Below, piece after piece: positions 10,630 to 19,727 of a stretch of 64,000 bases of DNA (positions are counted from its first letter, which is position 1; every line of letters starts with the position of its first letter). This DNA comes from Pontiella agarivorans (lineage in GTDB: Bacteria; Verrucomicrobiota; Kiritimatiellia; Kiritimatiellales; Pontiellaceae): contig NZ_JARVCO010000006.1 in assembly GCF_034531395.1 (NCBI RefSeq), positions 62,001 through 126,000 on the forward strand, read 5' to 3'. Below the pieces are notes generated by a model. That model made no database searches, had not been told where the DNA came from, and was given only the letters and a program-made list of their open reading frames with translations. The position numbers and the translations under genes are program-made.

Positions 10630-13131
10630 CTACTGCTGTTGAATACGAACCGTTGCACCCTTTAATCCGTCAACAGAAGCATTAACCACAATATCGCCTT
10701 TTGTTTTTCCGGCCTGCAGCATCATCAGTACGCGGCCCTGATCGGTTTCACAGCGGTCGGACTGGAAATCCTGCACACTTGAGGAGTTTCCATTGTCGAC
10801 ACCGATATTGCGGGCATCGCCCTCTACGGAAAATCTGACCCTGTGCGTCCGGTGCCGAACCGACCGCCCTTTTTCATCGACGACTTCAGCCACACAATGC
10901 ACCGCATCCCGTCCATCGGCACGCAGCGTTTTCTTATCCAGCTTCAGCCGAACCGCAACAGCTTCAGCGGCCGTGTGCAGCGTCTTAATCGCCGCAACCT
11001 GTCCATTGTTTCGTCCAACCGCTTTCAGCGATCCTTCTTCAAACGGAACAATCCATTTCAGCAGACGATCTTCATGATCCGCCAGTTTCCGAACGCCCAG
11101 CGATTTACCGTTTAGAAACAGTTCATTCTCCTCACAGTTGGAATAGAGCTCAATATAAACCGGCTCGCCGACTTCAAAATTCCAATGGTTGGAAACCTCC
11201 GGCCACCACCACTTTTTATCGCGCGGATTTTCCGGATTCTCAACAACCTCGTCATTCTTCAGCAGATAGTTGGAATCGGCCTGCGGCTGAGCGGCAATGT
11301 AAACCAGCGGCTCATCTTCTTTCCAGAAGGTCTTGAAAAACCAGTAGCGCGGTTTGCGGAATCCGGCGGTATTCAGCATCCCGCTTGCGGTAGAACGTTT
11401 CGGCCAGTCGCGCGATTCACCGAGATAATCAATTCCTGTCCAGAGAAAGACTCCGGCAATATGCTCATTTTCCAGCACACTTTTCCACTCTTCCCACTGC
11501 ACCCAGTTTTCGGTGCCGCAGATCATTTTTTCCGGATAGTGTTCATGCCCCCATTCATTGAGCACCGTGCGGTAACTGTAACCCACCACATCCAGCGCAT
11601 CGGCATATCCCGAAAAATGACTCACCGAAGGCATCACCATATTCGCCGTTACCGGACGGGTGGTATCGAGTTCCTTAATCCAGCGCGACAGATCGGCCGC
11701 CTGCTCCGCCAGAATGTGTTCTCCCTGACGCTTCTGCGAAACGGAAAAGCGCTCCCGGATTTCCTCTGCCGAAAACGGCGGAAGATCCCAGTAGTAGCTC
11801 ACCTCGTTCTCTTTATCCCAATAGCCCGTGGCATCGGAATACCCTGCATAGGTCCACTCAATTTCGTTGCCGATGCTCCACTGGATAATGGACGGATGAT
11901 TCCGGTCGCGCAGCACCATGGCTTTGATATCCCGCTCGGCCCAGTCACCGAACTCCTCCGAATACCCGCGCGTTAAATCATCCACATCTTTTGCATTGAA
12001 ATTATGGCGTTTGTCTTTTGGATTAAACCATTCATCAAATGCTTCATCCTGCACCAGAAATCCCATGCGGTCGCACAGATCCAGAAAAGCTTCCGACGGC
12101 GGGTTATGCGCCGTTCGAATGGCATTACAGCCCGCCTCCTTCAGATAACGAAGACGACGTTCCCACACGGCATCCGGAACTGCTGCGCCCACGGCGCCCC
12201 CGTCATGATGCAGACAAACCCCTTTAATCCGCATGTGTTCTCCATTCAGAAAAAAGCCTTTGTCCGGATCGTTGTAAATATCGCGTATCCCGAAACCCGT
12301 CGTTGCTCTATCCAGCACCCGGTCTCCCGAAACCACTTCAACTTCCGCCCGGTAAAGATACGGATGGTCAGGCTCCCACCGTTCAGGATTCCCGACAGTA
12401 AACGCCAGCGTTCCAACGGCCGGAGCTCCAGCCGCCAGATCCATTTCCAGCGTCTGGAAACCGACGGATTTCCCTGCGGCATCCTGCAGATCGACTTTCA
12501 GCAGAACCGGTTCTGCTGCATTCATACGGTTCTTCAGCGTAACGTCAACCTGAACGCGGTCGCCCCGGGTCGTCACAAAAACGCCGTACTGCTCGATATG
12601 GACCGGGCCGTGAGCAACCCATTTCACATCGCGGTAAATCCCGGATCCCGGATACCACCGGCAATCCAGATAGGCGGAGCGATCCACCCGAACGGCAACG
12701 GTATTTTTTCCGCCATAGTTTAAATATTCCGTCAGCTCGTAACTGAACGGAATATAGCCGAACGGCCGTTTCCCCAGATAATGCCCGTTAATCCAGACCT
12801 CTGAATTATTATAAACCCCGTCAAAATCGATCCGGAAAATCTGTCCTTTTTCCGCCGCAGAGACTTCGAATGTTTTTCGATACCAGCCGATACCGCCCGG
12901 CAGAAAGGCCGTGCAGCCCCCGGCATGATTAGTGGTAAAGGAATATTCCACACTCCAGTCGTGCGGAAGATCGAGCTCTCGCCACGCCGAATCATCGAAC
13001 GCCGCATTTTTTGCTGACGGCACATCGCCCGGCAGAAATTTCCAGCCGTTGGAAAAGTTCTGACCTTCCCCACCATGAGCAATCCATCCTGCCATACCCA
13101 TCGCCATTGCCGCCGTCAGCCCAAGCTTCAC
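10630..13131 (-). CDS. Secreted glycoside hydrolase family 2 protein, beta-galactosidase-like
   Basis: This 833-residue protein has a short signal peptide ([20 protein letters not shown]). The GH2 sugar-binding jelly roll follows ([19 protein letters not shown] near 110-130), then the Ig-like domain and the TIM barrel. The barrel has [19 protein letters not shown] (~340), the acid/base Glu in SIGNEIEW (Glu ~423) and the nucleophile Glu in CGTEN (Glu ~541). C-terminal Ig-like domains follow. It should remove terminal beta-linked galactose (or a related sugar) from oligosaccharides. The start is GTG: its G-T-G-A overlaps the stop of the GH16 gene upstream, and AAGGA lies ~9 bases before it. It is the last gene of the sulfatase operon, so oligomers desulfated and cut upstream are probably its substrates. 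Beta-glucuronidase or another GH2 activity cannot be excluded. Confidence 0.9.
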
Positions 13132-18254: not shown

Positions 18255-19727
18255 TCACTGGATCACCACCGGCTTGGCTTTCTTCGCTTTTTCCTCAAGC
18301 GATCGATACAGCTCTTCATACATCTGAAGGCGCTTTTTCTGGTAGTCCCCGGCCTGCAGCAGCACATTCGCGCTGTTTCCGGCATTCCACTCATTCCACA
18401 GCCGGGCAAGCTCGGCCTGTTTTTCGGGCGCTTTGCCCAGCAGGTTTGTGGACTCGTACGGATCATTCTTCATGTCATACAAAGCCGTCAGTTCCCCGCC
18501 CCAGTTTTCCTTGAGATATTTCCCGGTCGGCGTGCGCACACACCAGGCCGCGCCGTCTTTCACCCGCCAGAACAGAGCGTCATGCGGAGACCCTTTTTTT
18601 CTGCCCGAAAGATAGGGAGCCAGATTGACCCCTTCGAGTTTATGACCTGATGTATCGCCGCCGCCCAGCGCCACGGCCGTGGCCGCAATATCGAGCGAAG
18701 AAACCAGCCCCTTAAATCTTCCAGGCTTTGGAATACCGGCCGGCCAGTGGACGATATACGGCACATGGCTTCCGCCCTCATGCATACTGCCCTTGCCCTT
18801 TTTAAACTTCCCGTTGTTCGCCCAGTTTTCATTTTCATGGCCCGGCTTGGAGGTCACTCCGCCGTTGTCGGAAAGAAAGAAAATTACGGTATTATCGAAT
18901 TTCCCGCTTTCTTTCAGTGCATCCACCACCATACCGACCCCCCGATCCATCTCGTCAATCATCGCCGCATAGGTACGCCGACGCGGGTCCTTGATATGTT
19001 TATATTTTGCAATCGTTTCCTTTGGAGCCTGAAGCGGACCATGCGGCGCGTTATAGGCCAAATAGAGGAAAAACGGGTCGTCGCCCTGCTTCACAAACTC
19101 CACCGCATCGCGGCTGAGCGCCGTGGTCAGATATTCATTAAACTCACCCGCCTGATCATTGCGCATCAACGGCAGATAACATCCTTCATTGGCACTGTAG
19201 TGCGGATTTCCGTTTTTGAGCAACAGCGGATAAGCGGTCGTCACATTGTCCGGGAAATAATCGTGCCCACCGGAAAGGAACCCATAAAAATGATCAAATC
19301 CGCGATTGTTCGGATGAAACGGTTGCGATGCGCCCATATGCCATTTTCCAATAATCCCGGTACGGTAGCCCGCCGGTTTGAGACGTTCCGCGATTGTTTT
19401 TTCCGAAAGCGGGAAACCGCTATACAGATCGTACGGCGAATAGGTGATGTTGATTTCCAGCCCGAACCGGGCCTGATAACGCCCGGCCATCAGGCCCGCC
19501 CGCGACGGACCGCAATAGGGATGCGTCACATACCCGTTTTCACAGATCATTCCATTTTCCGCCAGCTGATCGAGCTGCGGCGTGAAAATTTCTTCAGACC
19601 CCGTGAACCCGACATCCATATAGCCCAGGTCATCGGCCAGAATAACCAGAAAATTCGGTTTTTCAGCTGCCTGTGCAGTAAAAACCCCGAAAACCGCAAT
19701 GGCGGCAAACTTCATAAAACGCTGCAT
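18255..19727 (-). CDS. Secreted Cys-type sulfatase (family S1), sulfatase 3
   Basis: This 490-residue protein is the first gene of the leftward operon. A signal peptide MQRFMKFAAIAVFGVFTAQA precedes PNFLVILADDLGYMDVG (metal Asp residues), the formylglycine motif C-G-P-S-R at Cys ~72, GKWHMGASQPFHPNNRGFD, NAPHGPLQAP and FLSDNGGVTSKPGHE. These are the full set of S1 sulfatase motifs. It belongs to a different branch from sulfatases 1 and 2 (CGPSR instead of CSPSR, and a GFxGSEE start region). The start is firm: AAGGAG lies six to seven bases upstream of the ATG at 19727. Maturation of the Cys requires an enzyme not encoded here. Confidence 0.95.
   Translation of the reverse strand: MQRFMKFAAIAVFGVFTAQAAEKPNFLVILADDLGYMDVGFTGSEEIFTPQLDQLAENGMICENGYVTHPYCGPSRAGLMAGRYQARFGLEINITYSPYDLYSGFPLSEKTIAERLKPAGYRTGIIGKWHMGASQPFHPNNRGFDHFYGFLSGGHDYFPDNVTTAYPLLLKNGNPHYSANEGCYLPLMRNDQAGEFNEYLTTALSRDAVEFVKQGDDPFFLYLAYNAPHGPLQAPKETIAKYKHIKDPRRRTYAAMIDEMDRGVGMVVDALKESGKFDNTVIFFLSDNGGVTSKPGHENENWANNGKFKKGKGSMHEGGSHVPYIVHWPAGIPKPGRFKGLVSSLDIAATAVALGGGDTSGHKLEGVNLAPYLSGRKKGSPHDALFWRVKDGAAWCVRTPTGKYLKENWGGELTALYDMKNDPYESTNLLGKAPEKQAELARLWNEWNAGNSANVLLQAGDYQKKRLQMYEELYRSLEEKAKKAKPVVIQ

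Follow-up and report, generated by a model that had tools for sequence, protein, structure and literature searches.

A candidate porphyran degradation operon without SusC/SusD in Pontiella agarivorans

The porphyran polysaccharide utilization locus (PUL) of Phocaeicola (Bacteroides) plebeius DSM 17135 (PMC12316285) combines porphyranases of the GH16_12 and GH16_14 types with GH2 and sulfatases. A six-gene operon in a 64,000-base stretch of the Pontiella agarivorans genome (C6:62001-126000, here called the window) carries the same kinds of enzyme, and GH29, a further likeness to this PUL, is found in four of seven homologous Pontiella operons. Unlike the P. plebeius PUL, the Pontiella operon is without SusC/SusD and S1_11 and adds S1_19-type and OpSulf1-like sulfatases, and its GH2 is nearer to GH2C of Bacteroides uniformis than to the GH2 adjoining the P. 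plebeius locus, with which it shares 29% identity over 412 residues. GH2C belongs to the agarose PUL of B. uniformis NP1 (PMC5849685), from which the Pontiella operon differs in having no GH117, GH86, Sus-like genes or hybrid two-component regulator. The fucosidase/sulfatase clusters without SusCD in Verrucomicrobiota (PMC8857213) also co-locate glycosidases and sulfatases, but they target a fucose-rich glycan whereas the predicted Pontiella target is a red-algal galactan. Kiritimatiellales metagenome-assembled genomes (MAGs) from Kyphosus fish guts (PMC11077953) are among Verrucomicrobiota MAGs said to encode enzymes with agar, carrageenan and porphyran as predicted substrates; the consulted parts of that source hold no operon of such make-up, and the porphyranase family they discuss is GH86. 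The sulfated alpha-mannan enzymes OpSulf1 and PbSulf1 (S1_51; PMC13063451) include the closest solved relative of two of our sulfatases, SulfA and SulfB, but the Pontiella pair has no GH195 or GH92 partner and is linked to porphyranases in 7/7 operons. Neither the absence of SusCD nor a porphyran prediction for Verrucomicrobiota is new, as they are already in PMC8857213 and PMC11077953, respectively. The operon was not found described in the literature on Pontiella porphyranases, and in the main text of the genome paper, as far as available (PMC10880615), GH16 occurs 0 times and porphyran 3 times.

We read the operon as a porphyran (agaran-type red-algal galactan) degradation module, with a probability of about 0.75; porphyran is the polysaccharide that forms the gel of nori-type red algae. 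The toolkit is of a known kind but newly arranged, and its new elements are the linkage of a sulfatase pair to porphyranases, a cysteine at a porphyranase methyl gate and a conserved upstream box. Growth of the marine strain P. agarivorans NLcol2 has been reported on agar, on a carrageenan and on dried Porphyra, and the genome paper counts 165 sulfatases and gives many substrates as unknown (PMC10880615). Our own whole-genome search (4,436,865 bases in 12 contigs) gave 152 sulfatase matches (150/170 candidates scored). The operon would provide a concrete porphyran module for anaerobic seaweed degraders rich in sulfatases.

The six enzymes and their nearest relatives

The six open reading frames (ORFs) lie on the minus strand, all uninterrupted, in the same direction and tightly packed, and are transcribed in the order SulfC, GH16-B, SulfB, SulfA, GH16-A, GH2. 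Gene starts were picked by eye from the surrounding sequence, and signal peptides of the six proteins were judged by eye only. The features are as follows.

19770..19797, minus strand: conserved box TTTACG-N8-TGTTACTGTTAACA, promoter/operator candidate
18255..19727, minus strand: SulfC, first gene, formylglycine sulfatase of the S1_19 type (Pfam PF00884)
17413..18258, minus strand: GH16-B, predicted endo-porphyranase, nearest to the 6-O-methyl-porphyranase BpGH16C
15759..17390, minus strand: SulfB, formylglycine sulfatase, nearest to OpSulf1 (S1_51 type)
14026..15660, minus strand: SulfA, formylglycine sulfatase, paralog of SulfB
13128..14018, minus strand: GH16-A, predicted beta-porphyranase, nearest to BpGH16B
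10630..13131, minus strand: GH2, predicted exo-beta-D-galactosidase, nearest to B. uniformis GH2C

Pfam assigned three genes to Sulfatase, two to GH16 and one to GH2, and the operon proposed in an initial annotation of this DNA is real, with intact ORFs of the families claimed. Both G-T-G-A overlaps described there are present (18255-18258 and 13128-13131, 4 bases each), the first depending on the GH16-B start, as it disappears with the alternative ATG at 18234. The remaining junctions, with the chosen starts, have gaps of 22, 98 and 7 bases.

Comparison with solved chains placed both GH16 enzymes nearest to porphyranases. GH16-A scored 216 bits against 4awd (BpGH16B), 153 against porphyranase B, 115 against porphyranase A and at most 79 against agarase-named chains. 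The catalytic Glu-Asp-Glu is kept, and in a 23-sequence GH16 tree, which excluded one GH16 of the same genome (C8:68349), GH16-A groups with BpGH16B with a support of 0.97. GH16-A is therefore predicted to be a GH16_12-type beta-porphyranase, in the sense of being nearest to BpGH16B-type enzymes among solved chains. GH16-B scored 188 bits against 8ep4 and 185 against 8ew1, both of which are BpGH16C, an endo-6-O-methyl-porphyranase (PMC12316285), and 75 against the next other enzyme. Eleven of the 12 binding or catalytic residues named for BpGH16C in that source are identical in 7/7 Pontiella orthologs (N61, W64, R67, W134, W143, E145, D147, E150, F169, N234 and E238 in BpGH16C numbering), and S136 is replaced by Thr in GH16-B. 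The methyl-gate residue Gly132 of BpGH16C is Cys in all seven orthologs, so that the methyl-admitting glycine of GH16_14 6-O-methyl-porphyranases is missing and the gate differs both from that of methyl-porphyranases (Gly) and from that of ordinary porphyranases (Ser/Thr). GH16-B is thus a naturally occurring cysteine variant at the porphyranase methyl gate.

GH2 scored 805 bits against 5t9a over residues 23-827, with the next chain at 498. 5T9A is GH2C of B. uniformis, an exo-beta-galactosidase active on agarotriose (PMC5849685). The data availability section of the same paper gives 5T9X as GH117B, yet chain 5t9x_A matches the GH16 enzymes of this operon, and the codes may be swapped. A GH2 nearest to an agarose-pathway galactosidase and the growth of the strain on agar (PMC10880615) would also suit an agarose/agaropectin operon, in which the GH16s would in practice act as agarases, with the sulfatases clearing no more than minor esters. 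We consider this very unlikely, as agarase chains scored far below porphyranases with GH16-A (79 vs 216 bits) and GH16-B (40 vs 188 bits, rising to 46 should 5t9x be an agarase), and the agarase BpGH16A branches elsewhere in the tree, together with another GH16 of the same genome. The red-algal sulfated galactan proposed initially is well supported as the target and can be narrowed to porphyran/agaran, because both GH16s are nearest to solved porphyranases and GH2 is nearest to an agaro-oligosaccharide galactosidase.

All three sulfatases carry the C-x-P-S-R motif (CSPSR, CSPSR and CGPSR). SulfA and SulfB are 48% identical and SulfC has different nearest relatives, bearing out the description of three Cys-type sulfatases in two branches. 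SulfC scored 344 bits against 9hh3, 329 against 6bia, 322 against 6b0k and 292 against 6prm, compared with 222 against the S1_16 chain 9fo1; the titles of 9hh3 and 6prm name the S1_19 carrageenan sulfatases ZgCgsA and PsS1_19B. On this sequence comparison SulfC is S1_19-like, its nearest solved members being S1_19. SulfC could accordingly remove galactose-4-sulfate as in carrageenan, the target then being a hybrid or more heavily sulfated agaran (e.g. with 4-sulfated D-galactose, or an agar-carrageenan hybrid), and its likeness to enzymes such as ZgCgsA and its place beside porphyranases in 6/7 operons would fit such a substrate. However, no carrageenase is seen in the operon: the kappa-carrageenase model (cut-off 350) gave the GH16s no more than 56 and 83 bits, and their best scores with carrageenase chains were 45 and 60 bits. 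We regard this target as unlikely. To our knowledge no S1_19 member of this lineage has been assayed, and the sulfate position is therefore not readable from the S1_19 name. Elsewhere in the genome (C4:128000-140593) a SulfC paralog (67%) and a SulfC-like gene (33%) lie close to a GH16 and to a membrane protein that by eye resembles a sugar transporter.

SulfA and SulfB both matched OpSulf1 (9fvt) best, with 279 and 283 bits and the next chains at 137 and 142. A SulfA profile built from 10 homologs gave 390 for OpSulf1 vs 172 for the next. The predicted SulfA model (mean predicted local distance difference test score, pLDDT, 71.8) aligned to 9fvt with a Z of 34.4 and a root mean square deviation (rmsd) of 3.0 over 480 residues at 35% identity, the next-best match being an S1_19 chain (Z 28.8, rmsd 3.8, 364 aligned). 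The pair is clearly nearest to OpSulf1, at 35% identity (SulfA), and may belong to S1_51, the subfamily stated for the PbSulf1 domain, which is 53% identical to OpSulf1 (PMC13063451). None of the titles listed for S1_51 sulfatase literature includes porphyran, and the conserved linkage described below ties this little-studied clade to a red-algal galactan.

Linkage in related genomes and the predicted finishing enzymes

GH16-B has an ortholog in 7/43 genomes of the order, the P. agarivorans genome included; the other six are 68-92% identical, and three more genomes have weaker matches only. We compared 12.5-21 kb stretches around these orthologs with the window. Near GH16-B, sulfatases of the SulfA/B type are present in 7/7, SulfC in 6/7, GH2 in 6/7, GH16-A in 5/7, an orthologous GH29 in 4/7 and S1_11 in 0/7. 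The stretch of P. sulfatireligans has no GH2, and its GH29s are of another type (23-24% to the GH29 of SZUA-380). In genome G020 GH29 lies between GH2 and a polyprenyl synthetase gene, an interval of 2 bases in the window and about ten in G012. As GH29 also follows GH2 in G003, G010 (where it is cut by the contig end) and SZUA-380, it was most likely lost from the operon in the window's lineage. The operon GH29 of the sister genomes shares 38% identity, over 482 residues, with the product of the P. plebeius gene between those for S1_11 and GH16C, as identified by gene order in PMC12316285.

The P. agarivorans genome encodes seven S1_11 homologs elsewhere (53-55% to BpS1_11) and GH29s that are 69, 66 and 61% identical to the operon GH29 of SZUA-380; two of these GH29s (C10:705-711 kb) immediately follow an S1_11 homolog. 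An S1_11 homolog was also found in 6/6 sister operon genomes (best 52-56% to BpS1_11). The idea that SulfA/B are a plain substitute for a missing S1_11 is weakened, since all seven operon genomes have an S1_11 homolog.

Several results weigh against porphyran as the substrate. S1_11 and GH29 are absent from the six genes of the window (Pfam), leaving the porphyran pathway incomplete in this one locus. GH16-B is only 38% identical to BpGH16C, and its support in the tree (0.69) is modest and weaker than that of GH16-A. SulfC is nearest to carrageenan sulfatases and SulfA/B to a mannan sulfatase, so that for 0/3 sulfatases was the nearest relative tested on porphyran. In SZUA-380, which has no SulfC in its stretch, the upstream box was not found. 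The initial annotation had named placement with glucan-, fucan- or mucin-specific clades as the outcome that would count against a galactan; the GH16s show no such placement, but SulfA/SulfB are nearest to a mannan and not a galactan sulfatase.

The operon is flanked upstream by a ComEC-like gene (19843-21339) and downstream by the convergent polyprenyl synthetase gene, whose stop is 2 bases from that of GH2 (both names by eye). Among the other genomes, G012 has the most similar GH16-B (92%), and it too keeps these housekeeping-type flanks. In an empty-site test, gain and move were indistinguishable, as P. sulfatireligans and SZUA-380 have the operon at another place and different genes beside their polyprenyl synthetase and pilin-like genes. 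The SulfA ortholog of G012 (10535-12177 of its stretch) matches in two frames, reflecting a broken reading frame or an assembly error. A second cluster of the P. agarivorans genome (C12:1070001-1090000) holds an S1_11 homolog, three other sulfatases, GH28, GH29, GH2 and a GH43-like gene, and one of its ORFs joins a GH16 (45% to BpGH16B) to an SHD1 domain. Within the window, 59728-63333 is a 1201-residue, exported-looking ORF of a kind not recognised.

Proposed pathway and uptake

In the pathway we propose for porphyran, the substrate, step order, cell location and regulation are predictions set beside directly observed gene identities, nearest solved relatives, active-site residues, linkage, the box, and the S1_11 and GH29 homologs that the genome encodes. 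The two GH16 endo-enzymes, exported on this reading, would cut the chain at porphyranobiose units, GH16-A acting on non-methylated stretches and GH16-B offering an L-galactose-6-sulfate site with cysteine in place of the methyl-admitting glycine of BpGH16C. SulfA/SulfB and SulfC would take off sulfate esters, and GH2 would trim terminal beta-D-galactose from the desulfated oligosaccharides. An L-galactose-6-sulfate exo-sulfatase (S1_11 type) and an alpha-L-galactosidase (GH29), encoded elsewhere in the genome, would finish the breakdown, and products would enter without SusCD.

OpSulf1 acts on alpha-1,3-mannan-6-sulfate and has an extended cleft (PMC13063451), from which we infer that SulfA/B may remove 6-sulfate within the chain. 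A more specific and rather doubtful proposal is that the two are chain-acting (endo) porphyran 6-sulfatases taking 6-sulfate off alpha-1,3-linked L-galactose inside the polymer, as OpSulf1 does on mannan, beside the exo S1_11 route of gut Bacteroides, and that a dedicated regulator would read the conserved TGTTA-N4-TAACA box ahead of the operon.

No SusC/SusD pair is present among the six genes (Pfam), setting the operon apart from a Bacteroidota-type PUL, and SusD had 0 matches genome-wide, with Bacteroides as positive control. TonB-receptor searches gave six matches genome-wide, five over the cut-off and none on the window's contig. According to the genome paper (PMC10880615), there are four porins and nine sugar transporters of the major facilitator superfamily (MFS), and TonB-dependent transporters lie close to certain other glycosidase/sulfatase genes. 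The initial statement that SusC/SusD are missing thus holds; its corollary, a different mode of uptake, is also correct, though not new, as SusCD genes are reported absent from Verrucomicrobiota MAGs (PMC8857213).

We also observed a protein family whose members, judged by eye, have a TonB-like anchor at the N-terminus and a stretch rich in Pro and Lys, for example at L010:971-2905 and C12:1209909-1211783. Its 19 matches in the P. agarivorans genome correspond to 8 copies of full length, 4 split into two adjacent pieces and 3 with only the N-terminus in common. A SulfA paralog has one copy next to it, and another copy lies within the homologous operon of SZUA-380. No Pfam family scored over the cut-off, SHD1 was sub-threshold in one member, and the structure model (mean pLDDT 48.5) was too poor to search.

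A conserved box upstream of SulfC

The 28-base box upstream of SulfC has the consensus TTTAC(A/G)-N8-TGTTACTGTTAACA. Its 14-base core is exact in the SulfC upstream regions of 5/6 genomes and a variant in the sixth, P. sulfatireligans. Aligned in its own register, the box was more conserved than both flanks in 15/15 genome pairs (0.64-0.93 vs 0.26-0.70 and 0.24-0.49). The box may represent a promoter and an operator that overlaps it, and transcription of the operon probably starts at a regulated promoter carrying it. A sigma-70 scan gave no minus strand site upstream of SulfC, and no RNA structure was found in the 115-base leader (z -0.37). The initial annotation's 'no regulator' is only half right: Pfam finds no regulator gene among the six, but a conserved operator-like box lies ahead of SulfC, giving this SusCD-less locus a candidate cis-regulatory site.

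We scanned 1,283,001 bases (883,001 sulfatase-rich and 400,000 of contig C7) and found one exact core, that of SulfC, two sites with one mismatch and 18 with two. Use of the box as a general sulfatase regulon mark is unsupported in this genome, the box being present in 1/59 sulfatase upstream regions, SulfC's own, counted on the gene's strand only with rule-picked starts for the 59 motif-recognised sulfatases of about 150. Both one-mismatch sites are copies of TGTTAATGTAAACA, the P. sulfatireligans variant, and both lie in the second cluster at C12:1070-1090 kb. By our own estimate 1-2 such sites are expected by chance, and therefore only the shared 14-mer and shared location are suggestive. 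In P. sulfatireligans a second exact core (L009:1224-1237) lies just upstream of another sulfatase gene.

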